Shown here piece after piece: positions 26,607 to 64,000 of a stretch of 64,000 nucleotides of DNA. The stretch comes from Mesodorylaimus sp. YZB2_4. Its lineage: Eukaryota > Nematoda > Enoplea > Dorylaimida > Dorylaimidae. The position numbers were made by a program, and so were the translations under genes. The notes below the pieces were generated by a model. It was not told the DNA's origin and made no database searches. It saw only the letters and a program-made list of their open reading frames with translations. The stretch lies in contig JASANH010000253.1 of assembly GCA_030248295.1 (NCBI GenBank), positions 186,001-250,000 on the forward strand, given 5' to 3'. Positions within the stretch are counted from its first letter, which is position 1. Every line of letters starts with the position of its first letter.

Positions 26607-27089
26607 GGAATTCTAAATCTTCTGGCTCTGACTTTGACAGTGATCGAACAAAAACTTTTGCTGAACCGGCACCAGTAACAAAGCTTCTTTGTGTCTGCAA
26701 TTTTACCAAGAAATTTCACAACAGCTGACAACTTCCTAGCATTACGTGAAATTTCACGGGCAGTCCGAGAAAATGAATTTTTATCAAACTCAAAAAGATA
26801 TGCAAAGCTGTTTTCACGGCTTTGGAAAAACTAGAGAAGCTGACACCCATTGAAAATCAAAAATAAATCTTGCTCGTTATAACATCAATTCCTGCTTAAA
26901 CTGCCCCCACATAATCGATTTATTTTCCTCGTATTCCGAGAAAAGGCGCCTTTCCTGGCTTGAAGTGGCTGGTTAAGCTAGAATATCTTGCGCCAATGAG
27001 GCGAGCTGGGATATGAAAGAATGGAAAGAGATAGGGATGGCTAGGCCACGGATGAATGGCATTCGCAAGCGCACACTACGCTGGCACAC

Positions 27090-28162
27090 AGTAGTCCATA
27101 CTACTTGACCAAGTATATCGAAGCCTTCGCTGTTCCCAACATTACGGCAGACACCATTGCCCAGTTGCTGGTGGATGGCATTATCTGCCGCTGGGGTGCG
27201 CCTCGCAAGATCATTTCTGATCGGGGCACTAATTTCACATCGGACCTGATCAAGAGTATTTGTTCAGCGCTTAGCATCAAGAAGTCGTTTTCTGTCACGT
27301 ATCATCCTCAGACCGATGGCCAGGTCGAGAGGACAAATCGTGTCTTTCGCGACATTCTGCGGATGTATGTTGACCAGAGTAAGCAGGATAACTGGGACGC
27401 CTTCATTCCGTTTGCTCGTTTCGCATACAATACCGCCGTCCACGATTCGACTGGCGAGACTCCTTTCTACTTGATGCACGGCTTTGATGCGAACTTGACT
27501 CTAGATGTTGCTCTACGTGAGAAGGCGTACCGATTCGAAACACCTGCAGATTACAGGGAGTTTGTTGTCTCCAACTTGGAGCGCGCGCGTGCTTTGGCTT
27601 TCGACAACATTGTATACGTATCCAAGAGCAGCGTACTGCTCGGCAAGATCCCTTGAATGGTTCTGGTTTGCGTCTGGGAGATCAAGCGATGTACAGACGC
27701 ATGCATACGCCTGTTGGAAAATCACCAAAGTTTTTGGGCGACTGGTTGGGTCCCTATCGCATAGTTGAAGTCATATCTCCCCAGAACGTGGTCATTCGAC
27801 CTGTAGCTGGGTTACGAGAAGATGATAAGCGTGTCCATGTCACGCAGTTGAAGTTCTTTCGGCCTGTAGTTTCGAAAGCATTGACGCCTAAAACAAAGTT
27901 GTTAAAAATTGGTGATGTGGTCTGGGCCAAGGTCAAGTACCAACCTTACTGGCCAGCCACAATCGTGGACCCGTCGTCTCTTTCGCTTCGGAAACCTTTG
28001 GCTTCGAACCAGTTATTGCTTCAGTTTTTTGAAAAATCTGGTCTGGATATTGTTGCTCGTGACGATGTGTTCGATTTTTTGGCGTATCGTAAAGAGTTCA
28101 CCTCGAATGCTCGTGGTTTACAGCGTGCGCTCAAGGCCGCTGATCGTTATCTCCGTGAATAG
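27090..28162 (+). pseudogene. Ty3/gypsy-like integrase with C-terminal PWWP-like domain (frameshifted)
   Basis: The first frame (to 27656) carries the middle and end of a retroviral-type integrase core: YLTKYIEAF, then ISDRGTNFTSD with the second catalytic Asp, then HPQTDGQVERTN with the catalytic Glu. The zinc-binding N-terminus and first catalytic Asp lie upstream and are missing. A one-base-type frameshift near 27600-27620 moves the frame. The second frame continues with LRLGDQAMY, a GPY/F-type module (GDWLGPYRIVEVIS), and then an ~90-residue tail. That tail opens KIGDVVWAKVKYQPYWPATI and ends in a helix (GLQRALKAADRYL), the signature of a PWWP chromatin-reader domain. Integrase inserts element DNA, and C-terminal chromatin readers steer the choice of site. 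Reverse transcriptase and RNase H are absent upstream, so this is a 5'-truncated, inactivated copy. Confidence 0.8.
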
Positions 28163-28329
28163 TATATGGTCTGTTAGTACTCTTCGTCTGTGTACAGTAT
28201 TGGCTTCGCAGTTGCAGTGACCCAGTGTATGAGGTTACTATTGTCCGCACATGTTGGCCTGCTGGTCTGTTGATTGCACTTGCACTGCGTACCGACCTGG
28301 TGCTAATGGTATGGTATTTTTTGTTGTAG

Positions 28330-29214
28330 ATGGCTGAGGTCGCTGAACTCAGCGTCTCCGTCGACTCCGACGAGTACACTGCGCTGGTGGCTCCAGTCTC
28401 CGAGCCAGCGACCACTACGCGGCCTCCCACTTCAGTGATGAGTCAGCGGTATCGCCCACGTCGAGCCCGCCTAATGCAATCTTCCCAGGCCTATCATATT
28501 CCTCGTGTCGCTGGTCCAGCTCCGGCACATACCCGTGGCTATACCAGTCCACTGGCTCGTTCCACAGTAGCCCGTCCAGATACCCCGGCTGCCTCGCTGG
28601 TGCATCCATGTCGTGGATCGAATCCTTCGCCTGGCACCTCTTTGGCTACTGTTCGGCGTCGTCAACGACGTCGACGTCGTCCTCGTACTACGCGCCAACC
28701 TTCGCGTTTGGATGCTGCAAGCCATGGTCCGCCTCAGTTCACTCGCTCTGCTGTGTACACGTCTCGTCGTACTGGATGGCTTTTGGATCGTCAGCCACCT
28801 GCTGTGGATCGCCAACCTTCGTTTTTGGATCGCCACCCTTCACTGCTGAATCGCCGCCCTTCGCTGGATCGTCCAGCCTACCAAGCTCGTCCTACACCCA
28901 GCGTGCATAGCCCCTGGCTCACTGATCCGCTCGCGCCACCTGTCGCTGTTGTGGCTCCTACACCGCGCTTGGCGATGGCAGTGGCTTCTACGCTGCCAGC
29001 GGATGTCTTGCGAGCGGCGTCTGTCATTTCGGCTCCGTTATTGGCTTTGGATCGACCGCCCATCGGGAATCTCTCGACTTATCTCACCGAGCGGATGACA
29101 GCTTACTTCTTAGCGGCACGTCTGGATCCATACTGTCCGACGGCTTTGGCGATTCGTGACTTGGTCCGATCTGTGGGCGCTACACTAGCCGTTGCGTCAA
29201 ATGCGTCTATTTGA
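28330..29214 (+). CDS. Third ORF of the gypsy-like element, basic Pro/Arg-rich protein
   Basis: This open frame of 294 codons starts 165 bases after the integrase stop and lies upstream of the polypurine tract and 3' LTR, the position an env-like or accessory gene would take. It has no signal peptide or membrane helix. It contains a polybasic stretch (RRRQRRRRRPRTTRQ) and degenerate tandem units of the form DRQPxxxDRQPSFLDRHPS. A splice-acceptor-like string (TTTTTTGTTGTAG) abuts the ATG exactly, so it might be expressed from a spliced RNA. It may act as an RNA- or DNA-binding accessory factor, but no family is recognised. Composition is more GC-rich than the flanks. Confidence 0.55.
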   Translation: MAEVAELSVSVDSDEYTALVAPVSEPATTTRPPTSVMSQRYRPRRARLMQSSQAYHIPRVAGPAPAHTRGYTSPLARSTVARPDTPAASLVHPCRGSNPSPGTSLATVRRRQRRRRRPRTTRQPSRLDAASHGPPQFTRSAVYTSRRTGWLLDRQPPAVDRQPSFLDRHPSLLNRRPSLDRPAYQARPTPSVHSPWLTDPLAPPVAVVAPTPRLAMAVASTLPADVLRAASVISAPLLALDRPPIGNLSTYLTERMTAYFLAARLDPYCPTALAIRDLVRSVGATLAVASNASI

Positions 29215-29499
29215 ACATTTTCTGCTTACGTTGATGGGGGTGGTAGCGACTTACGCACAATTGCACTCATGTCTTAGTACGCACATGGTTGGAGATAAAA
29301 AGATTGCACCCGCACAGGGATTGGGAGAGAATGGTTGCACCCGCTCGATCTGCCTGGACACCTACAATTGGACAGCCTACGACTCAACAACCAACTCAAT
29401 CAACAACGACCGATCAATGACTTCGCCTCCACCACAACCAACACCAATGAAGATTCAGGATAAAGTGATATATTGTTGCACAGGATCGAAACTTTATTT

Positions 29500-29514
29500 A
29501 AGAAGAGAGGGTGA
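29500..29514 (+). other. Polypurine tract before the 3' LTR
   Basis: AAGAAGAGAGGGTGA lies directly before the TGTGAAG that begins the LTR. This is the normal primer site for plus-strand synthesis in LTR elements and supports the LTR start. Confidence 0.7.
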
Positions 29515-29711
29515 TGTGAAGTATGCAGATGTGATGGCAACACCTTGGTGAACCGCCTGGCCTGGCGCCGACCAGACGGGACACCTTGTCCTAATTATTT
29601 CGATAACCAGTAATCGTGCCTGTTTGTGTAGGCCTATGTCTGTGTTCCAGGCCGGGAGAGCGGCAGAGGAAAATCGAGACTAGGAGCTGAGTGGCGGCGC
29701 TACCTTTAACA
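29515..29711 (+). mobile_element. 3' LTR of the gypsy-like element (197 bp)
   Basis: It begins TGTGAAGTATGC and ends CTTTAACA (TG..CA). It is near-identical, in opposite orientation, to 31591-31787, which has the same length. It is flanked by a polypurine tract on the left and by a primer-binding-site-like TTTGGCGAGC on the right. Confidence 0.8.
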
Positions 29712-30030
29712 TTTGGCGAGCTTGGCAGGAGGCTGGCAGGAGCCTTCTACCTGCACACGCTGCATTTCTGTGTTTTGGCTGCTGATTGCGATCTACGCCA
29801 CGTCGCTTCCGGCGTTGATTCAGTTTCTGAACTTTGATCGGTCGTCCGTACACCCATCGTCCACGAGCATCGTCCAGTGGTCGAACGCTCTACCAATCGA
29901 TCGATCTCGTTGGTCAAGCAACACGACACGTCCACGTTGGGTCTGGTGGTCTCGTGCGGCATCGCTCGGCATTGGCACAGCCTCCGTATCTGGTCACGTT
30001 GCAGTAAGTTCGTCGCTCTGACGTTTATTT
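29712..30030 (+). mobile_element. Primer-binding site and leader of the element, truncated
   Basis: Immediately after the LTR comes TTTGGCGAGC, a typical gypsy tRNA-primer site, then about 300 bases of leader shared with 31285-31590 in inverted form. This copy has a short internal duplication (GGCAGGAGGCTGGCAGGAG) not present in the other. Shared sequence stops abruptly at 30030, where inverted gag sequence begins. Confidence 0.65.
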
Positions 30031-31106
30031 ATGTCCGAGAAGGTGTCCGAGAACGAGCACGTGGTGTGTCGTACTCGCCTTGACGCACGGACGAACGAGC
30101 CCTCCCATAGGCCTGAGCCGAAGGACGAAATGAGCTAGACCGATCCTGACGCTCATCACGACTGTGCCGTGGAATACGATCGGTACGTGAACCATAACGA
30201 TTGTCTCTAGCCCAACAATCCCTGGTCCAATGATTGTTGCGACGACAGTACGCACAATACCTGTCCTGAGGACGGGAAGAGCTATAGCCAGCTACCTGGT
30301 GCGACACAACACGATTGACTGCATGCCCAGTCGAGCCACCACAAACAGAAAGGGTAGCTTCGGCGCGCTCCGCAATGGAGCGCGCAGCTGACAAGAGCTG
30401 CGGATCAGCACGACGAACCTCTAGTTGCAACTGGACAGTGAGCCCAGAGATGTATTTCTCAATGAGCCAATGTTCGCCGTCCTGGAGATCAGGGAACGCA
30501 GCGGTACAGTATGCCAAACGAGCTAGACGTTGGAAGTCGAGACTATACGCTGTGACTGTTCGTGGATCTTGCCTCAACGTCGACAACTGCGTCTTGAAGA
30601 TGCTACGCTTGCCTTGCAGAAGACTTTCCAGCCAAGTAGGAAGTAGCGATCAATTGAGCAAGCCGACGCTCATCCTCAGCAAGTCTGCTACCCAGTCGCG
30701 AACCGGAAGGTGGCGGCACTGCATCTGTTGATGCCGACACCGTGGACAGCGTAGAGGTCATAGCTGTACTGGTGGATGAAGGCATGGCGGAAGCGAAATC
30801 GCCGAGAAGTCGAGAAACATCGTCACCTTGGCCGAAGGCAGAGGAAGCTGGCACCTCGCGAACCGATGATGAGAAATCAAGTGCACTAAGACGTTCCGCC
30901 GAGGCCCAATCACGAATGAGCGAGATCAGCTCTGTCGGCATCTGATCCAGATGATATTCGATGGAGTGCAAGCGACAAAACTGCTGCAAAACTGGCTTAG
31001 AAACCCATGAAGGAAACGAAGGCTTGAGAACCGAAACCGCAATCGTAAAGTCGTCTCGAGACAGGGCCATCACGAGTGGCACATCAGAGAGGCACAAAAG
31101 CGACAC
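30031..31106 (-). pseudogene. Gag-like polyprotein of the gypsy-like element, C-terminally cut and frameshifted
   Basis: On the - strand the first frame (31106-30603) gives the N-terminal part with Ser-rich linkers. After a one-base-type shift near 30595-30605 the second frame (30586-30031) gives a capsid-like helical region (AYSLDFQRLARLAYC) and a zinc knuckle of the CX2CX4HX4C kind (CAYCRRNNHWTRDC), followed by an Arg/Ser-rich tail. The knuckle packages element RNA. The frame ends artificially: its stop codon is created by the junction with the inverted leader at 30030. No protease or polymerase follows. Confidence 0.75.
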
Positions 31107-42412: not shown

Positions 42413-44623
42413 TTACATACCCGCATGAAGGGTTTCAAACGACCCCGTCTCGATTCGACCCGTAACGCTGTGCACTGATGAACAGAGAAGCTTTCGAGCA
42501 TCGTCCTCATTCGAATAATTGATTTCCAGGTCTTCTTCTTTTCTGAGAATATGAGTTGGAATTTCGCGTTTTGCTCCTTCTCCCTCGTCTATGGCTACAG
42601 TTTCGATGGATGGCTGTCGACCATGCGAATTAACTGACGTCGATTCCAAGCCACTCTTAAATGCACATTTGCACAAGCAGGAACATCCAACTAGCCATTG
42701 CTTTTTCTCACATTTAAGTTTTTCATGAGTGTTGGATTTCCTGTCGGATTTCGATTTGGAAGCTTGATTTGTTTGAAAAATGCTCAAAGGAAACATGTTC
42801 CTTCTTGATGTAGATTTTTTCGGTGTGGAGGGGAAATGATCATTTGTTGCATTCGGAATTTGATCGCTTGTAATTAGGGACGGTTGCGGAGGTAATAAAG
42901 CAGCTTTGCTAATTGTTTTCTTTCTGATCGTGCTCAGTCTTGGAACTATGGAACCCCTCGAAGACGAAGCAGCGGAAGGAGCGCTAGGAATGTTCGGACG
43001 TTTATTTGGTGGAGTTTTTGGCAATAGAAGAGATCGAAGACGCGATGGCGATGGTGTCCAATGTTCGTTCTGCTCCTCTGGTATAGCTTCATGGTCATTT
43101 TGATCCAAAGTGAAGGTGAAAATTCGACTTCGACCATCTCGTCCATTCCTGATTGGTGTGCTGGGATCGTATCTGGGCGATGCGCGATCAGTGCCCATTC
43201 TTTCAGTTCCGAGATCATTGGTTGTAAAATCCATCGTATCATGGTAGGCAGTTTCATTAAAATCGCTATCACGATGTCGTCGATTTCTTCGATTTAATAA
43301 ATTCGAAACAGCGCATAAATTTTGAGCTTCCGGGCAAAATTCAGAAGCGGTAATTGGCGCCATTTGTGGCCGCCGTAAATTACGAGATCGAAGACGTGCG
43401 CTTTGCCTGGGTCGTACAAACCAGCGTACATAAAATTTTCGTGGTAAGACTACTTGCCAAAATACTTGTCTGTATTTGGAACTCATGATACAATATAAAA
43501 TGAAGTTGACACTACTGTTGATCAGTGATAATAAATCCAAAATATCGGCAACATTCGGATACACGTATTCGTGCATGTGAGCTACATAAATACCGCTCAA
43601 TATCGAGATAGCCCCCTGGGGCAATTCAGTCAATAATGACAGTCCTAATATCATCAATAACATTGCTGTCGTTCGATCTGATCGCGTCTGCGAATTTTCA
43701 CGTTGTGTGCGCGGATGTGACTGGGGCCCAAAGGCAGCCGTCGATGTCAAATTAGCTATAGCTCGATTTCGATTCATATCTAATAGAGCTTTTCGGTTTT
43801 TCTCAGCTCTTTTTATCGTAAATAATAAACTAAAAATTAATAAAGCTAACAATATGCATGGAATAATTTTAAATAAAGTTCCAGTTAACCAAAAAGTTAC
43901 TGTGAAAATAAGGCAGTTTTCTAAACGTGTTCCGATCGTATATGCTTTATATAAACGATCCATTTCAGCAGCAGTTTCTTCAGGACACGTTTGATTAAAA
44001 TATTCTTCCCATGCCAAAATGCTGTTACTAAATACGCTAGGCACGCAAAGGATAAATACGAAACCATACACGATAGCGCATATTTTCCATGTATTGTCGG
44101 ATCTTAACCAGGGCGAACCGACGCGAGTTTGTCGCAATGTCATATTTCTGATGAACGCCATGGCTACCGATAGCCACAAGGTGGTCGTGTGCAGGGCTAT
44201 GCTCAACATGACGTGACACATGAGAAAGAACATCCAGCCGTAAGTGTATAACTGGGCATTACATAGGTGATCGGCCAGCACGAAATGGACGATATAGATT
44301 AAATACGACAGCATAGTGCCCATATCGCAAAATGCGATGCCGGTCAAAAGAACGTTGATTGAAGTGCGCATTTGACGTTTGGTCAAAACGACCACATTGA
44401 TCAAATTGGTCAAGATACCAAACGAGCATATAACCGTACATAGATAGCCATGATAAGGCTCGTAGAAAGATCGAAATCGCCGCAGACTATTTATCAAGTC
44501 CAATGTAGAATTGTCTTCGAAAGAAAATAATGGCAGACCGTACGAACACATCATGTCCATTTTGAAAAAGCAATGGCTTTTGCCGAGGTATTGAACACCC
44601 GCGCTTTGGATGGAACACTGCAC
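42413..44623 (-). CDS. Rhodopsin-class peptide GPCR, DMSR/myosuppressin-receptor-like
   Basis: Intronless frame of 736 codons. Translation may start at residue 1 or at the Met of MDMMCSYG (residue 22). Seven hydrophobic helices lie at about 59-81, 88-113, 128-152, 179-201, 240-270, 318-345 and 357-380. Helix 1/2 wording (GILTNLINVVVLTKRQMRTSINVLLTGIA) and helices 6-7 (MILGLSLLTELPQGAISILS, LLSLINSSVNFILYC) match the DMSR / sex-peptide-receptor group. The DRY motif is replaced by FIR (158-160) and NPxxY by NSSVNFILY, as is usual in that group. Such receptors sit in the plasma membrane and bind RF-amide or myosuppressin peptides through Gi/o. The ligand here is unknown. The C-terminal tail is unusually long (about 340 residues), Ser/Arg/Pro-rich, with a Cys cluster (CSCLCKCAFKSG) that may be palmitoylated. 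A single-exon structure suggests an old retroposition or intron loss. Confidence 0.9.
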   Translation of the reverse strand: MQCSIQSAGVQYLGKSHCFFKMDMMCSYGLPLFSFEDNSTLDLINSLRRFRSFYEPYHGYLCTVICSFGILTNLINVVVLTKRQMRTSINVLLTGIAFCDMGTMLSYLIYIVHFVLADHLCNAQLYTYGWMFFLMCHVMLSIALHTTTLWLSVAMAFIRNMTLRQTRVGSPWLRSDNTWKICAIVYGFVFILCVPSVFSNSILAWEEYFNQTCPEETAAEMDRLYKAYTIGTRLENCLIFTVTFWLTGTLFKIIPCILLALLIFSLLFTIKRAEKNRKALLDMNRNRAIANLTSTAAFGPQSHPRTQRENSQTRSDRTTAMLLMILGLSLLTELPQGAISILSGIYVAHMHEYVYPNVADILDLLSLINSSVNFILYCIMSSKYRQVFWQVVLPRKFYVRWFVRPRQSARLRSRNLRRPQMAPITASEFCPEAQNLCAVSNLLNRRNRRHRDSDFNETAYHDTMDFTTNDLGTERMGTDRASPRYDPSTPIRNGRDGRSRIFTFTLDQNDHEAIPEEQNEHWTPSPSRLRSLLLPKTPPNKRPNIPSAPSAASSSRGSIVPRLSTIRKKTISKAALLPPQPSLITSDQIPNATNDHFPSTPKKSTSRRNMFPLSIFQTNQASKSKSDRKSNTHEKLKCEKKQWLVGCSCLCKCAFKSGLESTSVNSHGRQPSIETVAIDEGEGAKREIPTHILRKEEDLEINYSNEDDARKLLCSSVHSVTGRIETGSFETLHAGM

Positions 44624-47024
44624 TGGGTGGTGACCGAGTGAGGAAGTAGAGTGAGCGCGGAGCTGTTGCAGTTGGAGCCTTCCATAGTGTTAAGTATTGT
44701 AAAAATATAAGATTCAATTATTGGAATAGGATTCTATTTTTTACAACATCCTACCCCTCGTCGTTGATTCGCAATTGTGGGCAAAGGCGATGGCACTTTT
44801 GCAGCTGACGCCCAGAAATCACTAGAGAATGGCGAGAGCGAGCGTAAGAACCCGTTCTTCACTTCTCGAAACAAGAAAACTAACCTCGCCATTCTCACCT
44901 TCTTTTCTCACAGGCCACAATCGACAACAGCCACCAAAGTAGATAAAGCATTTAAATTGGCGCCAGACGCAACTGATAAATTCAATGAATAAACGCCAAC
45001 GAGGTGCTCGGCCAACGAGCATGCACCAAGGCGAGTGGACGTAATTGAGACCACGGCCTCGTGCACTGTAGTAGCGCCCATAGAAAAACCAAGATTGATG
45101 GCTAGCTCTCCATCGATCGAACTAAAAATTCATCCATTTTGTCATCTCAAAGTAAACGAGACGTTGGTTGGCTTTGGAGAACTGGGTTCAGTTATTTCTT
45201 ATATTTCTTTATCAAATTGTGTAATTGACGATTGATACGAAGACTAAATTAATTGGAAAGCGCTAAGAAATGTTGCCAAGTGAAAACCCAGCAATAGCTT
45301 TGAAAAATGAAAAGTAAGTAAATAAAATGACAAATAAATGCAAATTTCGTCAAATATTTCCCCGCTGCGTCTTTGGAGCTAGATACCATTGGTACCTAAA
45401 ACTGATTCTGCTAGAGTAAGCCAGGGCAGACTTCAGACATAGACTATGGATATACCGCACATCACATTACAGCAGGTACAGAACGTCATTGACAGCCCAA
45501 GTTCAGAGTAGTTTGTTCCCCGGACGGTGGAAAGTGAAAATAACAGCCGTCACACTTCCTCAAATACAGAAAGGTCAAATTAGTTCATTCCGCCCGCCCC
45601 GCTTGCAAAAAAGACCAAAATGACTTTCTTATCTGCAGTTGGAAAGAAATGCTTAAAAGGGAAAACGCAGCCTTTATGCAGCAAAATCGATGCATGTTAA
45701 TCGACCCGTTCAATTATTGGCAACCTGGCAGTGACTTTGCGGGTTTTGTTTCCTCGAAAACGCTGCAACTGTAGAAAAAGGAAGAGGAGGCGTGTGAACG
45801 GGCTCCCCGTGAACAGGAAAGGCATTCATGCAAATTGTAAACTTTGAAAGCAAAAAAGCACGCTTTTAGCAGCAAAGGTTTCGAGCGCAAGGCGCAAACT
45901 CGATCGAGAATGGCCGAAACTATTCGTTGAGTAAACGAACGATTTCCAGTGGGTGGCACCGTCCAAGAGTGCCTTTTCTCCTCTTTTATCCTTTGTAGAG
46001 TTCCGAGTAGATGACGCCCAACGTAAGACTAAAAACGCTATCGACTTAGTCCGTCTGTCGGTTGTCAGAGTGGATCAAAGGATGGCAGATTAAAGTATTA
46101 CAGACTTCATTTTGGGCATTCGGTTCGTGTTGTTAGTCGCAAAAGGAAGAAAACTGGCAAAACCCTTTCCGATGAGAACGAAAATCCGCTCTCTGACGCA
46201 AAGAAAACTTTCATTCGAAGCATGGTCTCCAAGTCAGGCTTTATAAAGGTTAAGGCCGACGTCGAGGTCTTATCAAAAACAACTCATTCCAAGAGGATTA
46301 TAAAATGGGTTTTTTCAGAACCCGAGCCTGTGGTAACGAGATTTTTCGGTGAATAGCAAGACCCCGAGAGCGAGGAGTCGCAATGGAGAGGAGTAATGAA
46401 AAGGGTCGAAGTTAGGTGCCCTGATGCATGCCATGAAACTAGTTTATGGTGGCGTTTTACGTTACCGCTTCACTGTTCAATATAGTTTTGTTTCGGCTTG
46501 ATTTGACCGAGGGAAAAGTAAAAACAAGCGAACAGAGTGGACTCATTTCGAGGATTCGCTTTCGTACTCATTTCCTGTCCTCGCAAGCATGTTTTTGCTT
46601 GGAGACCATCGTGCCCGGTTTATGCCACCTTTGGGAAAGCGGGCACTCGCCTTGTGGGTGGTCAATAAAATGAACCAAGAACGCGATTAGTCGCCACGCA
46701 GAGTGAGTGGTAAATCCTAGACTCACTTTGTCGCTAAGGCTCGATTAATCGCTGTGTGTATTGGAGCAGTGGAAAAATCCCAGAGGACTTCCCCGGACAT
46801 CAGATTCCCTCTCATCCTCTCTCAAAATGTACGATCACTCCTAGTCGAGCGCTAGTGCATCAAATTTTGCATTGGGAAAGGTCACATCGCCTACGTTTAA
46901 CGTGTCCAAACTGCACATAGCATGTTTGCACTAAGGCTCCACAGAATGAAGAAAGATCGATATTTAATTAATGTTTTTCAGAATTGAGAAACAAGTACCG
47001 AATTCATATTCATTTTGATGACGT
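44624..47024. other. Intergenic, no gene supported
   Basis: Contains the 5' flank of the GPCR. A - strand frame from 44717 overlaps its start, but in a different frame. The frames at 44777-44992, 45035-45235 and 46446-46673 have no recognisable domain or splice partners. Confidence 0.45.
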
Positions 47025-54250: not shown

Positions 54251-55460
54251 TCGACTGCGAAGCACAGATCGTGCACTGATAAAGCAGAAGGACACATAAA
54301 CGAAAGAAAATAAACAGCTCATGTCGAGTAAAACTAATCATAATCATAACGGGGTCAAGGAATGTAATTCAGAACGTTTGTCTTAAAACTTGTCACATAA
54401 TAAGTCCAGGCGACTTCGTTTGGTATTGAGTTCCATAGAACAATCGATGAGTATTCAAATGCCTGTTTAAACGATTCAGTTCGAGGTCGAGAATTGTTGA
54501 GATGGTGTGGCGGCAATCCAATGCGGTGACTGCGGCGTAGTCCGGATTGGTCGGTGTGAGCAAAACGGGCATTTGGATAAGCATGGTAACCGTGATAGAA
54601 CTTGTAAAATTGAACGAGTTTCAGTTGTTGACGGCGACGCTCGAGACTTGACCAATTCAAATCTTGAAGAATGCGGGAGTAATCGGAATTCCAGTCGTTC
54701 TTTATACATTGGGCTGCAAACTTTTGAGAGCGTTCAAGGTCTTTGATTGATTGTGATTGAATAGGATCCCACGCAGAGCAACCGTATTCCAATTTTGGAA
54801 GTACGCAGGATGTGTAAACTGTTTGTAAAACATGAGTGGCGAATTTCCCAAATTTCTTCCTAAACGCACCAACCATACGCCGAGCCGCAGCCGCAATCAG
54901 ATGACAATGATCTTTAAATGAGAGATCGAAAGTAAAATGCACCCCGAGGTATTTGACCACGTCGGTGAACAAGATCGGAACTCCTTTAAGAACGATTTGA
55001 TGATAGTCATGCCTCTTATGATCAAGATGAAAGACGCACGCTTGTGTCTTTTGCGCGTTGAACTCGAGACCACTTTCACTTATGAGCTGATCTATGAAAT
55101 CGATTGCAGGCTGAAAAGTTTCTGATATGGTTTCAGCCACTTTGGACGGTGCTAATAAAACGAGATCATCGGCGTATGCTTGTAGAAGTATGTCTGGTTT
55201 GAAATTTTCGGCAGACCATGCCTCGAACTTTTCCAAAATAGGATTCATGAACGCAATAAATAAAGTTGGGGCCAAAACGGACCCTTGAGGTACACCGGAT
55301 GGAACTGCAATCGTCCTTGAAACAGCTGAGTCCACAGCTACCATTTGTGAGCGACCACGTAAATAGGACGATATCCAACGTACTGACTTTGGACAGAGTG
55401 AATGATGGTTTAATAAGACTTTGTCAGCTGGCCCCCTCCTGACTTTAGCGAGCATTTCAG
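54226..55460 (-). pseudogene. 5'-truncated LINE retrotransposon (reverse transcriptase)
   Basis: The open frame 55455-54355 (366 codons, - strand) holds the reverse-transcriptase core from RWISSYLRGR, through SGVPQGSVLAPTLF (motif B) and AYADDLVLL (catalytic motif C), to FNAQKTQ, YLGV and the thumb/C-terminal region (LEYGCSAWDP, ERRRQQLKLVQFYK). This belongs to the Jockey/CR1/I type of non-LTR elements. Motif A with its catalytic Asp, the endonuclease and ORF1 are missing upstream, the usual result of incomplete target-primed reverse transcription. The 3' UTR ends in ATACA repeats. It cannot transpose by itself, but the long open frame suggests a recent insertion. Confidence 0.85.
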
Positions 55461-55679
55461 ATACTGAACTTTGGAGAGTACTGTAATTATATTTTTTATG
55501 CCTGCCTTGCGGCGCAAGATGACAAAAGCTTGATCAAATGGATCCTGATAGATCGGACTGAGCTTGAATCGAATTTCTGTCACCCCTAATGATAGTAATG
55601 CCAGCCTTTCATCCTGAAGGTGCCTAAAATTCTTTCGAAGGCAGTTTGTGTCCCCAGTTGGCTCGGTTGGAACCATGGT

Positions 55680-56420: not shown

Positions 56421-57103
56421 CAATCCCTAGTATGGTAGGAATCGCACAATGTCCATACTAAAATTAAGCCCGAGGGATAAATCAGAAATGTGCGCATTTT
56501 AACCAAGCTTTGCGATTGCGCATGAGCAATCTCTGCCAGTTCTCATGCTGCATATTTCTGATGTGGTCCACATTTAGCAGACATAGTTCAACCCACAACA
56601 ACAACTCTTTTGTCATGACACAGGATTTCTTTGGCGAAGTTCTTCCAGCTGATTGTGAGAACAACTTCGACAAACAATTACAGCTGTACATCTTTGATAC
56701 TCAACTCGAAAGTAAGCTAAGCTAGTACGTACATTAAAAATGTGTGAAACGTTTTCTGAAACCGAAATTTACAAGGACGAAGTCATCTTTAATTTAAAAA
56801 GAAGAAACGACGCAAGACCGCCCAAACTATCGCCTGTAAAACTAGTTGACGAAGGCGTTGGAACTGACTCGCTGGTCGCGTACTAAAGACACCCCTCGTC
56901 CTACAACCATACGCCCACCTCCTTACACGTTTTCGACAGATGCAAAAATTTGCCCCGCCCATTTTCTAAACGTTTCCTTTACTGTACTGTGATTGTCAAA
57001 CTTCGGTCGAAGTTCGCAGTTTACAAATTCGTTGTGTTCGTAACGATTTTTTGACAAAACCTCTTTAAATGTCGATCGATAAAATTTTATAAATGCCTAA
57101 AAA

Positions 57104-60100
57104 ATGTTTCAAGTAGTTTTATTTGTTTTGATATTCTTCCGATTCCCTTCTTCAGACGCACAACCAATATTTAACAGTATTCCCGGCAGTTTTGTCATTT
57201 CGTCCGTGAATGAACAAATTCAAACTGCAGTCAACGAGTTGTCAGTTCCATGGGCGGGTTTTGTACCCCCGAACAGGCAATCGAGTGCCCCACTGTACGG
57301 TTTGACTTATTTTCCGTGGCGAACTGTGGAAGATTGTTTAAATATTACTGCCTCTGATATTGAATCTGATATTCGTACGATTTCTGAACTGGCAAGTAGC
57401 ATTTATATTTATGAACTTTTCTGCGATTACGGTCCATTATTGGTCAATTTAACTCGGCAATACGACATGAGTATCCTTATCGGGTTACCATTGACTAACG
57501 AATTAGAATTCGAACGCCAGCGACAAGTTTTATACGATATTCTAACGACACCAAAAATAAATTTATCTCACGTCGTTGCCATATCTGTAGGTCATTTGGA
57601 ATTAGGACCCATTCTTAATCGCTTAAATCCAAACATGACTGTGAGCAGAGTCATTGAAAAGCTAAGAAATATTACATCAATGGTTGATCAATCACCATTC
57701 CCAGAAATTCCTGTCTCAATCACTGATACGGCTGATAATTTTTTTCGGAGACAAATATATAAACACATCGAAATTTATATCGGAAGCCACAGCACAATGG
57801 GAAGTCAGAAAAATGCAAGCGTAGCCGCCAGTTATCTTTACGAAGGTTTGTTCCAAATTCGTAATTCTAATCCCGATTTATCATTTGATGACGATACAGT
57901 TAATAAAGCGATAATTTTAACCGACATTGGCTGGGCTTCTGGAGGTTATTACGAATCGAATCGACCAGACCGTAAGCCCTTGCCACCACCAAATAGTGGA
58001 ACTAGCGTGACTGTGAATCGATCTCAGAAACAACTAATTAATCCCTTGGAACAATTGATGTTTCTTTACAATATCCATTGCCCGCAGTACGCTCTTCCGC
58101 CAATGTACTACATCCATTCCGCCTTCGACCTGACCTGGAAGTATGATTCAAATGATAGCTTGGCTCACTGGGGATTGGCTGATGCTGTGAGCAGGCGATG
58201 GAAACATAATGTTGTATCTGCACTCACTTACTCGTGCGAAAAGGAGGTCCCTTCAAAATTCGATGAAGATAAAGCTTTGGAACGTGACAAAAGCTGGATT
58301 TACATATTGACTGGAATTTGCATTGCTTTGTTCGTCATATTTCTTGCTATGTGTGGGTTGGTATTTTGTTTTTGGAGATGGAAACGAGATGCAGTGAGAA
58401 AACTGAAAATGACGCAGGAACAGCAATTGGAATATATGCGCAATTGCAGCACCACGAGTGGACGTAAGTGTCATTTGCTTTTTCACTTGTTAGATTTGTT
58501 TACCCCAACCAATCTCTTTAAAAAAAACCCTAGAATTTGAGACGGCTGTAGTGTCGCGATTTTTAGATTTCTTCTGTTTTTCTTTCCCTCTCTATTTCTT
58601 TCTCCTCCTTTTGATTTTGGAAGGCAAGCAGCTGGACTTTCCTCTCTCCGTCCTTATAAAATACATACATGTTCGTACAGTAACTCCCTGTTAGCCCCTG
58701 TTTTGGCTTCTCTGACGTGATGGAGATTGATTTAGGAGACAGCCTCCTTTGGCATTTATGTGCAATCACAATCATCCTTGTCGCTCGAAAGTACAGTCAC
58801 TGGCGGGAAGCTCTGTTTTCTTCGGCATTTTAAGCGAAAACATGGTTTATGCCGGCAACACTTATGAAGAAATCGACATTCTCTATCAGAAGGAACCCTT
58901 GTTTTTAAATGCTTACAACTTTTCAGAAGGCTTCGGCGTACATCCCAAAACTTTTCAAAAAGGCTGTTTGAAAATCTGAAAACGCAGCACTACCCGAGAA
59001 AAGAGAGAAAGTACATTCTGCACAGTGTCTCTACAAAACTGTAGCCCGCATCGATCAGTTACCACTGACAATGTCGGCGCAGGGTTCTAGTTTGTGACTG
59101 ATCGTGAGCCCTTTTAATGCATTATAACGTTATGAGGAATAGGACATAATAAAAAGATACAAAAATCCATGAAAACGTTTCCTCGATAGCCTCTCAAGAA
59201 AACAGGTATGCCTCTGTAAGCAGAATAATTGCATTCACGCTGGAGTAATCGAATGCTTACTAATTGTCACCTGGCTTTTTTTAACGGGTCATAGCTACCC
59301 CAAAACCAAAATTCCAAATGCCTTGATAAAAAGGGCATCGCGCGTCACAACGACACCTCACTTGTAATTTTTTCCTTCAGGCTCCTTAACAACGTTCAGT
59401 TACATGCAGTCATCAATAGTTTCGGTGTAGGCTACTTGACCCCAGGCATTTGGCTGACAAGGGCGACATGACATTATTCCATGGTTATACAAATTATTTA
59501 TGTTAATCAAACATTTCTTTCAGCCGATTCTGAATCGAATCGCTACGTGAAGGATATGACTCGATTTAATACCCGGTGGGACGATTATTTAAATATGCTT
59601 GAACCTGATTATGAGGACTTGTCTTATTTGGTGGCGCCTGAATTGCGTATCGATTTGTCACATTTGGAATTGATGGAAATTGTTGGGGAGGGTAATACTC
59701 ATAATTGGAAATCTATAAAAGATTAACCGGAAGTGAGATTTCAGGGCACTTTGGGATTGTGCAAAGAGCAAGACTGTACAAGGATGATGAGACATTTGAT
59801 GTGGCTGTAAAACGATTGCATGGTAAGCCAAAGGAGTACGTTTTCATTCCTTTCTTATTTCTTCAGTACAAACCTTTTTCTTGCCGCCTCATATTTTCTT
59901 TATCATCATGCTTTTTCGATTATCAGCACCAATTTTGGCGGAGAGACATAATCCACCCGTAGTTAGACCTCCATCCCCATCTCCAAAAACAAAATAATGC
60001 CAATGCTAGTTTAGTGGAAGCAATACATAGTACACTCCTTTACAAATACGGAGCTGCTTGTAATTTTTGAGCCTAAAGAAATTTTCTGTGTGATGTTTTG

Positions 60101-63048
60101 ATTTTGGTGTATTTGATCAGTAATATCAACCAATACATGTTTGTTTAATCGGCGGAATTCGAATCTTGCCAGCAAACTTCTCCGAAATTCCCCAATTATA
60201 TACCTGTATGTCTGGAAATGACACAAGCCATTTTAGTGGGCGCCAGAAACGTACATCAATTCTTAATGGAAGGAATAAAAATGCAGAAATTCAATCACCC
60301 AAACGTTTTGAACTTGATTGGCATCAGTTTCACTCCGACTAACATGCCGATGATCATTACTCCGTTCTTGGACGAAGGGGATGTCCTCAATTATATTCGG
60401 AAACCCGAAAATATGGTAATATAATTGGTAGATAGGGGCCGTTCATAAAGGACGTCCAGGCTACCCGGGGGGTTGGCGGAAAATGGACGGTATGGATGGG
60501 GAAAGAAGGGGGAGGGGGGAGGTCGGCGCCAAGTGGACGTCCACTTCTTTCACATGTTGTTTTTTCAAATTTCGCGGGTGAAAATGTGTGCTGTCTTCCT
60601 ATTGCACCATAAACCCAATACAACAACCCAATACAACAAACCCAAACGCGTTATAAGCCAGCCTCGAAACTTGCAATGGTTATCAGAATTTTTTTGTGAT
60701 AACATGGCGAACGACAGAGAAAAATTATATTTGGAATTTACTAGCGCTTTTGTCAAGTTGAAAACGGACATTCCGAAAGAAAAAGCTCATCGCTACGCTC
60801 AGGACCGATGGAATGCCATAAAGACCAATGAAGAGAAAGTCCGCGAAGAAATTATTGTTGATCAGTTGGCCAAACGAATTTGTAATCGTTGCGGTCTTTA
60901 CTTCGCTTCTCAAACTTCGGCAAAATCTCATTTGAGCGTTCATAATGAGAGTGCGATCTCGGGTGTAAATGATGATCCTGAACCACCGCGTCGAGTTGGT
61001 CGCACGGGCACGATTCCTGTTTTAGAAAACATTTTCGATATCTTAGCAGGTCCATTTACTGATGCGGATCGATGATGAAATGATGTTGTTTTTTTTTTAA
61101 TGTCATGTTTATCGCTTTCTTTTTTTTCTTATATAAAAAACGGGATTTTGCTCCGAAGATGGTCTTTGGTGGGGGGGGGAGGGGTCGACCGAACCTGGAC
61201 GTCCATGGGAGGGGGGGTTAAGGCAAAATGGACGGAAAGGTGATAGGGGGTGGGGGGGGGGGGGGGTCAAAAAAACCTAAATTTTTGTGGTAGTCCTTTA
61301 TGAACGGCCCCATAACAAAAATTATAATGAATCCTTGAGCGATCAAAAATGTTTTTAGACAATCCCATTACGACAATTGTTGAACTTTTGTTATCAAATT
61401 GCGGAAGGAATGAAATACTTGCATGAATTGAAGATGATTCACAGAGATCTGGCTGCGAGGAATTGCATGTAAGTTACAAAATAATCTGGGTAGGTGACCT
61501 GTGGGCTCGTTGGTATTTGGATTCACACCCGCGAACTGTTTTCAAAATGGAAAGTATTTCAAGGTTATGAAGAGGTGCCGTTTCTGCACTGTAGGCCCTT
61601 TCATATATAGGTGGCCCTACTTGCTGGCCCGAGGCCTATAACTGGGGGATGCGTACAAGTGCAAAATGGTGAACGTGGTGAACGTTGCGGTAATCATAGT
61701 TTTACCCTGTCTTGTTCCTTGTACAGGCAAAGCGTGTACTACTGCACAGTACGTGCCCACACAAAAGAAGCATGCAATTCTAACTGAGTTATACTGCAGC
61801 AATGCTTTATTACTTACTTTAGGTTAGACAAAGAACTTACAGTAAAGATTGCTGATTTTGGCCTGTGTCGTGACATCAGTGAGAGCGATTCGTACCACAC
61901 AACTAAGACATTTGAATTACCGATCAGATGGATGCCACCGGAAGCCATCGAAAAATTACATTGGACCAGTAAAAGCGACATTGTAAGTAATTTTTTAGCT
62001 GTTTTGCTCTGCTTGTTCAGGAGGGAATCGTTTCAAATTGCTAAACATCGTGAAGCTTACTGTTAATCAACCACCAGCACAGGGCAGCCAAACTGACGAC
62101 AAATAGGTCCAGGCCAGCATGCAATATAAATTCCATATAGAAATGAAAACTAGGTTCATTTTCTGCTGAGTGTGCAAGTTTAAAAATGCAAGTGATTTAG
62201 CTGAGGCGTCTAATTCAGTCATTTTAAAAGCATTTTGCAACCGAAGACACGAGGGGAGTGCCGTTGGGCTCCCACCCCCCCCCCCCCCCACATAACCTTT
62301 CTGACTGCTGACTGCTGACTTTTTCTGAAAATCTGACTGCTGCCAGCTTTGGACGATCACAGCGCGCAATAAAAACTATCACCTTATGCCCTACAGGTGC
62401 TAGGCATATTTCTAACTATGTAGAACCAACGTTTAGCATATCACCACATGTCATTTTAGCTTCGCGAAAATCATGTTAGTTTTTTGACGTGTTCTCAAAA
62501 AAAACATTTTAGTGGTCTTACGGCGTCGTCATGTGGGAACTGATCAGTCGTGGCCAGCAACCATACAGCGAAATCGCTTTGATCGAACTGCGAGGTTTCT
62601 TGAAAAGTGGTGCTCGCTTGGAAAAACCAGCCGAATGCCCCGATATTGTGTAATATACATATTTTAGCGCTCCATGTTACATCTCTTAGAAAACGCAATC
62701 CCCTTTGTTTCTAGCTATGAAGTCATGAAAGCGTGTTGGGTGATTCGTCCTAGTTTTCGTCCAGAGTTCAGTGATATCTGCGAAGGCTTGCCAGTTCTTA
62801 TTCAAGCTTTGGACGATGCAGAAAATTTAGACCAGCCTGATTACTTCGATGTCATAATGCCACTGATGGCACGGCGTCAAATAGAGAATGAGAATGAAAT
62901 CGAAGTATCGCCTCCCCAAACACCAGTGCACGTGCAACCATCTACGGCTAGAAAACGTTCAAGGAAGCATGCGTTTAGTCGGAATCCGTTCACGTGGACA
63001 ATGCCTAAACGTGTTCCATTCAGGGAAAGAAATACATCTTTGCCTTAG
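57104..63048 (+). CDS. Receptor tyrosine kinase with degenerate GH17-like (glucanase-fold) ectodomain
   Basis: Eight exons in frame: 57104-58463, 59524-59691, 59745-59822, 60237-60415, 61359-61468, 61823-61982, 62513-62649 and 62715-63048. They give about 841 residues. Signal peptide at 1-19. Residues about 60-375 read as a GH17 beta-1,3-glucanase fold: YGLTYFPW (65-72), SHST (228-231), AASYLYEGL (241-249), a TDIGWASG strand (273-280) and [12 protein letters not shown]...AHWGLAD (335-360). Both GH17 glutamates are lost: VGNE reads VGHL (162-165), and the nucleophile position is Asp274. Eight N-glycosylation sites are present. The transmembrane helix is at 398-423. The kinase (about 500-755) is intact: [57 protein letters not shown] resembles MET/TAM kinases. 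It has a single activation-loop Tyr (SDSYHTT). The C-tail is basic. Probably a ligand- or sugar-sensing receptor, with the ligand unknown. Confidence 0.88.
60435..61311. mobile_element. Small DNA transposon with GGGGCCGTTCATAAAGGAC ends inside an RTK intron
   Basis: The 877-bp element starts GGGGCCGTTCATAAAGGAC and ends with its exact complement (19 bases). It is flanked on both sides by ATA, which fits a 3-bp target duplication. Subterminal motifs recur: the palindrome GGACGTCC near 60450, 60536 and 61198, and AAAATGGACGG on both sides (60480 and 61216). Both flanks are G-rich. It lies wholly in the intron between kinase exons 4 and 5, 19 bases after the donor site. It may belong to a PIF/Harbinger- or ISL2EU-like group on the basis of end sequence and duplication size. 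No transposase is encoded. Confidence 0.8.
60704..61075 (+). CDS. Single C2H2 zinc-finger protein encoded by the small transposon
   Basis: This intact 123-residue frame is fully inside the element's inverted ends. An N-terminal helical half ([20 protein letters not shown], then [16 protein letters not shown]) precedes one perfect C2H2 finger: CNRC at 60-63, then twelve residues, His76 and His80. An acidic-Pro linker and a short hydrophobic tail ([11 protein letters not shown]) follow. The start is the ATG at 60704 (AACATGG context). An in-frame ATG at 60473 would add a run of Gly/Arg from the repeat and is unlikely. One finger alone gives weak DNA binding, so a dimer or a transposase partner is expected. 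The palindromic GGACGTCC repeats near the ends are plausible targets. The frame is open despite lying in a short element, which suggests recent selection. Confidence 0.65.
   Translation: MANDREKLYLEFTSAFVKLKTDIPKEKAHRYAQDRWNAIKTNEEKVREEIIVDQLAKRICNRCGLYFASQTSAKSHLSVHNESAISGVNDDPEPPRRVGRTGTIPVLENIFDILAGPFTDADR
62270..62291. repeat. Poly-C run in RTK intron
   Basis: About 18 Cs, almost uninterrupted, followed by CTGACTGCTGACTGCTGACT units (62301-62320), in the intron before the exon encoding WSYGV. No coding role is apparent. Confidence 0.7.
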
Positions 63049-64000
63049 CCTGTGTTAATATCAACTTTTTGACCGAGTTTCAGTGGTTAAGTTTTACAAA
63101 CGTGTTTTGTATTGTATGGCTTTGTGTACGGTGCTAGCACTTTGATAACAGATACTTCTATGTAGCATCGGGAAAATATTATTATTTATAAAAAATTTTG
63201 AGTGTATTATCTGTGACACGTTCTTGCTAAGTGGCATGCGCATAAAAGCTGATTATCCACACATCAGCACACATCGAATTTTTCCCTTCGACGCGGCAGA
63301 AATAATACAAATAAGTTCCAAAGTTCAAAGTGAGTGGAAATTGAGAAAATGAAGGATCACCGCGTCAAGCGTCTGAGCAAAATCGTCTGATTCTCGCACG
63401 GCTGACACGGATGACGGGTGGATATTCGATGTATTGTTTTCTAATAAGCTTGTTATTTTGTATGCGAGCATCTAATAAGCCCTGGGGACAAGGAGTAGAA
63501 GGGAAGTTCGTCGACTGTCGTCCTTAGGACTCCACTCCACGCGTTTAGCGAGGAGTCCTCCTCGCGAAAATTTAGCGATATATGTCGATTTGCGTCCACT
63601 AAAATTTTGGCGAAGTAAAGGCCTCTATGTACACCGTTTAACATCTTGCTGTCCTTTTCTTATCTTGTTTTAATTGTGGGCATTTTTTATTATTAAGTAC
63701 AATTTCATTTCTCCCTTGGGGCTTTCAAATGACAGCAAAAAAGACGAAATCAGTAAATGAAGATAAATGCTTGGCGATAGCTTGGCCTACGGCCTGACCC
63801 AATGCTCGCACATTACGAGCGAAATCTTGACCGTGTACGTGAAGGCTAATTTATGCTGGGCACCGAGTTCTCTGTGACAGAGCGGCGCACTGCTTTGAAT
63901 GGTCCCAGATTTTCATGTTCGAGGATTACTGTACTCTGTCCCAGTCTTCACTGGACCCTGAAAACTCGGGGAGCAGTATAAATGCACCAAAGTCAGGAAA
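63049..64000. other. RTK 3' flank, nothing else recognised
   Basis: AT-rich 3' UTR/intergenic sequence. I see no domain-bearing frame, tRNA or repeat end. The - strand frame at 63453-63644 has no support. Confidence 0.5.

Follow-up and report, generated by a model that had tools for sequence, protein, structure and literature searches.

A receptor tyrosine kinase gene with a GH17-homologous and apparently non-catalytic ectodomain

The window (the whole stretch of DNA analysed, 64,000 nucleotides) encodes an 841-aa receptor tyrosine kinase (RTK) at 57104-63048 on the + strand, in eight exons with GT-AG introns. We consider it probable that this protein is a MET-like RTK with a swapped-in, non-cutting GH17 domain as its ligand-binding part. 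A wider proposal, which we favour with somewhat less confidence, is that it represents a distinct class of animal RTKs in which a captured GH17 domain replaced a MET-like ectodomain, lost catalysis and the sugar cleft, was re-tooled for new ligands, and came to be present as four diversified receptors in a single animal. If true, this would be a new ectodomain type among animal RTKs, and a clean case of sensor change in which genes like the donor and the receiver, together with a shared intron, are still present in one genome. The features of the gene are as follows.

57104..58463, + strand: exon 1, with signal peptide, pseudo-GH17 ectodomain, membrane helix and start of the juxtamembrane part; ends in phase 1
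57104..57163, + strand: signal peptide, approximately residues 1-20 (hydrophobic N-terminus, by eye)
57287..58228, + strand: GH17-homologous domain, residues 62-375 (limits from hhalign and the PDB profile search)
57596..57598, + strand: Leu165, at the GH17 proton donor position (VG[SN]E), by alignment
57923..57925, + strand: Asp274, at the GH17 nucleophile position (E[TS]GWP), by alignment
58316..58372, + strand: single membrane helix, residues 405-423 (hydropathy maximum 3.0)
59524..59691, + strand: exon 2, juxtamembrane part with a motif of 11 letters, kinase start
59745..59822, + strand: exon 3, remainder of Gly-loop GEGHFG, VAVK lysine
60237..60415, + strand: exon 4, alpha-C helix to hinge
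61359..61468, + strand: exon 5, catalytic loop HRDLAARN
61823..61982, + strand: exon 6, DFG, activation loop containing a single Tyr (SDSYHTT)
62513..62649, + strand: exon 7, kinase C-lobe (WSYGVV)
62715..63048, + strand: exon 8, kinase end, tail with DYFDV, stop

The exon 1 frame was open from 57101 to 58540, and the ATG at 57104 lay one codon after an in-frame stop. When the eight exons were spliced in silico, the stop was reached without a frame break. This bore out the earlier note, which had described a long intronless first exon followed by seven kinase exons. Exon 1 encodes the signal peptide, ectodomain and membrane helix, and contains nine N-X-S/T sequons, eight of them ahead of the helix; the kinase is encoded by exons 2-8. 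The kinase matched PF07714 with an E-value of 1.2e-83, and its tyrosine kinase motifs, including the Gly-loop and DFG, were intact. Hydropathy placed one membrane helix directly after the ectodomain. The gene model thus has the layout of an RTK (secretion signal, ectodomain, one helix and cytoplasmic kinase in one chain), as had been claimed before.

The junction between exons 1 and 2 (58463/gt and ag/59524) is in phase 1, as computed for the window gene, and encloses a first intron of 1060 bp. Given this intron, and because the joining is known here from the gene model, exon 1 might be a membrane-protein gene of its own, attached to the kinase exons in error. However, the splice sites are canonical, the frame is kept, and the arrangement is repeated at four loci on three contigs; we regard such a misjoining as extremely improbable. 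A chimaeric assembly was rejected because the ectodomain-helix-kinase layout occurs at all four loci. Three recurrences elsewhere in the genome, on two contigs besides this one, indicate that the layout is neither a chance frame nor an assembly chimaera.

Two observations concern the rest of the gene. Intron 4 (window 60416-61358) contained a 208-aa stop-to-stop frame (60449-61075) flanked by inverted arms (60420-60458 and 61288-61326, 77% complementary), which looks like a DNA-transposon insertion. A possible zinc-finger motif was seen by eye in this frame, and no Pfam family matched it. A 99.6% identical copy of window 62507-63890 was present on C1042, an 11.3-kb contig of which 10 kb was compared. 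The copy holds only exons 7-8 of this RTK gene together with downstream sequence, and may be either a recent partial duplication or a haplotype or assembly leftover.

A search of the genome (145 Mb, 1067 contigs) revealed three more GH17-type ectodomains with kinase exons, two on C139 (~253 kb and ~268 kb; C139a and C139b) and one on C85 (~50 kb), and one stand-alone GH17 relative, L004 (C3:531551-532489). The window, C85 and L004 queries all led to these same five GH17-like loci; the number is a lower bound because only the best candidates were scored. L004 is a 313-aa frame that passed the PF00332 cut-off (33.2 bits; cut-off 28.2). It was the only place in the genome matched by the Pfam GH17 model, which matched none of 14 control genomes. 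A protein search with L004 gave eight proteins at E≤0.001, all PF00332 and none an RTK. Proteins P0001-P0008 are mostly assembly-derived and all annotated as PF00332, and only P0004 is recorded as coming from a bacterium; P0001 and P0002 were 86 and 87% identical to L004 over 80% of its length. Upstream of L004, a frame was noted by eye that has a hydrophobic start, resembling a signal peptide, and a short Cys-rich stretch. This frame seems to be the first exon of L004, which is apparently a secreted GH17 protein. Contig C3 (2 Mb) also carries Wnt genes; the genome gave 31 Wnt exon matches, which we grouped into nine loci. Contamination was ruled out, since L004 lies on this Wnt-bearing contig and a GPCR of animal type is encoded on the window contig.

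GH17 kinship was not visible in searches with single sequences. The window ectodomain alone matched no Pfam family, did not pass the PF00332 cut-off, and gave no PF00332 hit up to E≤10; the paralogue ectodomains gave none at E≤1. In the whole window protein, no Pfam family other than the kinase exceeded its cut-off, and no Sema/plexin-type ectodomain was found. No relative scored for the window ectodomain (5052 candidates) or for the four aligned RTK ectodomains (5745 candidates) in searches of 5.8 billion proteins. Both searches were blank, so the claim covers this one genome. That single-sequence searches are blind to GH17, and that the Pfam GH17 model matches L004 only, counts against our explanation.

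Profile comparisons gave a different result. A profile built only from the ectodomains of the four RTKs, and so free of any GH17 enzyme, matched PDB entries 4wtp (2e-10) and its variant 4wtr (8.5e-10); three further matches were weak (E 0.4-0.79). The 4WTP match spans positions 106-351 of the 457 in the profile. In hhalign, in which E-values refer to single comparisons, the four ectodomains aligned with six environmental GH17s (P0003-P0008) at 99.2% (E 6e-20, 254 columns), and with L004 plus P0001-P0008 at 99.8%. As a control, we used an unrelated ectodomain found in other RTKs of this genome; it gave 0.1% against the four and 0.1% against the GH17 set. A chance motif match was ruled out by these profile searches and controls. 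GH17-type motifs are found in the window protein at residues 65 (YGLTYFPW), 273 (TDIGWAS), 339 (SAFDLTWK) and 354 (AHWGLAD), so the landmark strands reported in the earlier note are present. The matched entries belong to RmBgt17A (PDB 4WTP/4WTR/4WTS), a fungal GH17 beta-1,3-glucanosyltransferase. The window protein shares with it the landmarks GW, AFD, WG and K, but differs in being membrane-anchored and fused to a kinase. Judged by profile similarity, the window ectodomain is homologous to GH17, as proposed before the HMM and profile check was run, even though single-sequence Pfam was blank.

GH17 catalytic motifs are VG(S/N)E and E(T/S)GWP(T/S) (PMC10237404). In the joint alignment, the proton-donor Glu position was occupied by L165 in the window protein and by L, T and N in the three paralogues, and the nucleophile position by D274 and by D, E and G. 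Neither catalytic Glu (VG[SN]E, E[TS]GWP) is present in the window protein, as the term pseudo-glucanase had implied, and the pair is incomplete in register in all four GH17-RTKs. We also mapped 15 active-site positions of RmBgt17A (residues from PMC11005184) under three MAFFT settings. None was retained in the window protein or C139a, 2-3 were retained in C139b and 2 in C85. The corresponding numbers were 5 for L004, 5 for P0001, 6 for P0002, 7 for P0003 and 8-11 for P0004-P0007; P0008 was omitted because its sequence is cut short. Compared with RmBgt17A, the window protein has substitutions at the two catalytic Glu and at the other 13 mapped positions, including Trp65, Trp157 and Phe230. All four GH17-RTKs lack Phe230, Trp65 and the Arg that precedes the Thr in GH17. 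In L004, D143 is at the donor position and E238 at the nucleophile position. Both Glu are present in P0003-P0008. By this alignment, the ectodomain appears to be a pseudo-enzyme in which cutting and sugar-gripping residues have been lost.

Two details run against loss of catalysis. An acidic residue lies one place past the lost donor in three of the four GH17-RTKs (E166 in the window protein), so a shifted catalytic site is possible, and C139b retains the nucleophile Glu. The ectodomain might still be an enzyme with altered chemistry (Asp nucleophile, acid shifted one place) whose signalling is coupled to catalysis. The nucleophile position holds Asp in two of the four and Glu in one, and Asp replaces the donor Glu even in L004, P0001 and P0002. 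However, C85 has G-A-G at the nucleophile, no acid lies near the donor site of C139b, and the shared losses of Arg, Phe230 and Trp65 speak against this reading (the Trp65 position is lost in L004 too). We consider an altered enzyme quite improbable and prefer a non-cutting domain.

In the mechanism that we propose, the GH17 domain would no longer cut glucan and would serve ligand binding. We infer activation through a dimer: ligand binding would bring two receptors together, each kinase would phosphorylate the activation loop of the other, and tyrosines in the tail and juxtamembrane part would act as docking sites that recruit signalling proteins. The juxtamembrane segment is similar in all four receptors (the 11-letter motif in the window protein, EPHYADLSYLV in C139a, SDYENLSALV in C139b and YADLKNMV in C85), and in the tail, the window protein has DYFDV and C139b has DYYNAL. 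By eye, these tyrosine motifs look like phosphotyrosine docking sites.

The earlier note had suggested that the domain could bind glucan or glycan ligands. Glucan binding is not supported by the residues, given retention of 0/15 active-site positions in the window ectodomain relative to 7 in P0003 and 8-11 in P0004-P0007, and the idea of a glucan sensor is weakened by that count. Since the alignment shows no remaining glucan cleft, we think that the ligand is more likely a protein, or a glycan different from plain beta-1,3-glucan. A dead GH17 barrel might nevertheless act like a lectin, binding beta-1,3-glucan or a similar polysaccharide from fungi, algae, food or the animal itself and signalling its presence. 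Inactive enzyme domains often retain binding. GH17 ancestry and this general tendency favour such a receptor, and the ectodomain cores are less alike between paralogues (28-31% identity) than the kinases (53-61%), which is common for recognition domains. However, the loss of Trp65, Trp157 and Phe230 weighs against it, and for scale, even stand-alone L004 retains only 5 of the 15 positions; we find glucan sensing doubtful. The ectodomain might also be an accessory scaffold with no ligand of its own, in which case it would partner a co-receptor and a different receptor would drive the kinase. Klotho is a precedent, as an RTK signalling partner with a glycosidase fold (PMC6056499); however, a kinase with intact motifs lies in the same chain and nothing here points to a partner, and we regard a scaffold role as unlikely.

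The kinase has a different kinship from the ectodomain. Among the best 60 of 2638 PDB matches of the whole window protein, the first was an entry named EGFR, the 2nd to 41st were MET/RON, and AXL and MER followed. Within these best 60 of 2638, the window kinase is, by sequence, closest to MET/RON. In a tree of 21 kinases, the four GH17-RTKs grouped together (0.98), C14 and C487 came next (0.84), and then C45 (0.94), a further related kinase in the genome; these support values are approximate because the alignment was anchored on the window sequence and held only 21 kinases. Of 439 candidates, 149 were scored, and these gave at least 117 tyrosine-kinase exon matches in the genome at E≤1e-8. Many kinase matches on C20, C18, C178 and other contigs had nearly equal scores, perhaps reflecting an expanded kinase family.

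The sister RTKs, at C14:386.7-393.1 kb and C487:34.6-41.6 kb (L049, L050), have a large ectodomain and are 49% identical to each other. Their ectodomains, searched as exon-joined pieces, gave no Pfam family above cut-off and no PDB match; a Sema/plexin ectodomain was sought in both searches and not found. They end in a WGCGWC cysteine cluster (PSI-like by eye only) and showed no likeness to GH17 (0.1% in the controls). A phase-1 intron lies just past the membrane helix in all six genes, i.e., the four GH17-RTKs, C14 and C487 (phases by eye). In an ectodomain tree without P0008, a split with support 0.998 set the four apart from L004 and the remaining GH17s; branching among the four was not firm. 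That C14 and C487 combine the same phase-1 intron with an unrelated ectodomain fits a single ectodomain replacement followed by duplication, and we infer that order of events. The earlier note had suggested that the ectodomain was acquired; its gain as a module is supported by the intron common to the six genes and by the differing ectodomain of the sister RTKs. The starting point would be an RTK of the MET-like kinase group with its original ectodomain. A module of signal peptide, GH17 domain and helix, probably donated by a secreted GH17 gene related to L004 on C3, would have taken the place of this ectodomain at the phase-1 intron that lies immediately on the inner side of the membrane helix. 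A single replacement would then have been followed by gene duplication to four.

MET itself has a truncated plexin extracellular domain (PMC6374515), whereas the window receptor resembles MET/RON in its kinase domain and has a GH17-like domain in that place. PMC6374515 reports Met as absent from Ecdysozoa, which fits poorly with finding a MET-like kinase if the animal is a nematode. C. elegans SVH-2 has been termed MET-like (PMC5161311) and homologous to Met (PMC4618690).

We found no description of an RTK with a GH17 ectodomain in the open-access literature searched, and the main text of a holozoan tyrosine kinome paper (PMC8662651) has no words starting with "glyco" or "hydrolase". The receptor type thus seems not to have been described previously. 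Comparable systems differ from it in one or more parts. Like the window receptor, Klotho puts a glycoside-hydrolase barrel to use in RTK signalling, as an FGF co-receptor (PMC6056499). Plant CHRK1-type proteins join a glycoside-hydrolase ectodomain and a kinase in one chain (PMC5485988, PMC4707873); PMC5485988, with 91 plant sequences, predicts the GH18 domain to be active, whereas the window ectodomain is GH17-like and has lost the catalytic pair. In whiteflies, GH17 glucanases of plant origin occur in an animal genome, tested active and have both catalytic Glu (PMC11800479); the available text of that paper mentions no kinase part, whereas the window receptor is kinase-fused. To the knowledge of its authors in 2025, GH17 was undocumented in animals before the whitefly cases (PMC11800479), so the GH17 gene of the present genome is of interest by itself. 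The parallel with Klotho and plant CHRK1 offers a test of whether glycosidase barrels have repeatedly been recruited as receptor modules. In the window receptor, the domain and kinase are in one chain. Klotho is a GH1-type barrel, of a family other than GH17, on a separate co-receptor chain that has no kinase, and CHRK1-type proteins are plant receptor-like kinases, not tyrosine kinases.

The genome is that of an animal, as indicated by the Wnt loci and by an Srw-type GPCR and a DEG/ENaC-type channel in the window, and a nematode or near relative is possible to likely. TTR-52, a family centred on nematodes, had 27 matches. No SL1 spliced leader was found in the genome at ≤2 mismatches, and Chitin_bind_4 (cuticle domain) and tardigrade SAHS were not found in searches that had no positive control. 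Other window features include the GPCR, a 758-aa open frame at 42416-44689 (-) with an Srw-type domain (2.1e-39) and a long C-terminal part, and the DEG/ENaC-type channel at 23.4 bits, just below the 23.6 cut-off. A reverse transcriptase frame (RVT_1) at 54358-55533 (-), and an integrase with a weak, sub-cut-off gag match at 27045-30649, suggest an LTR retroelement.
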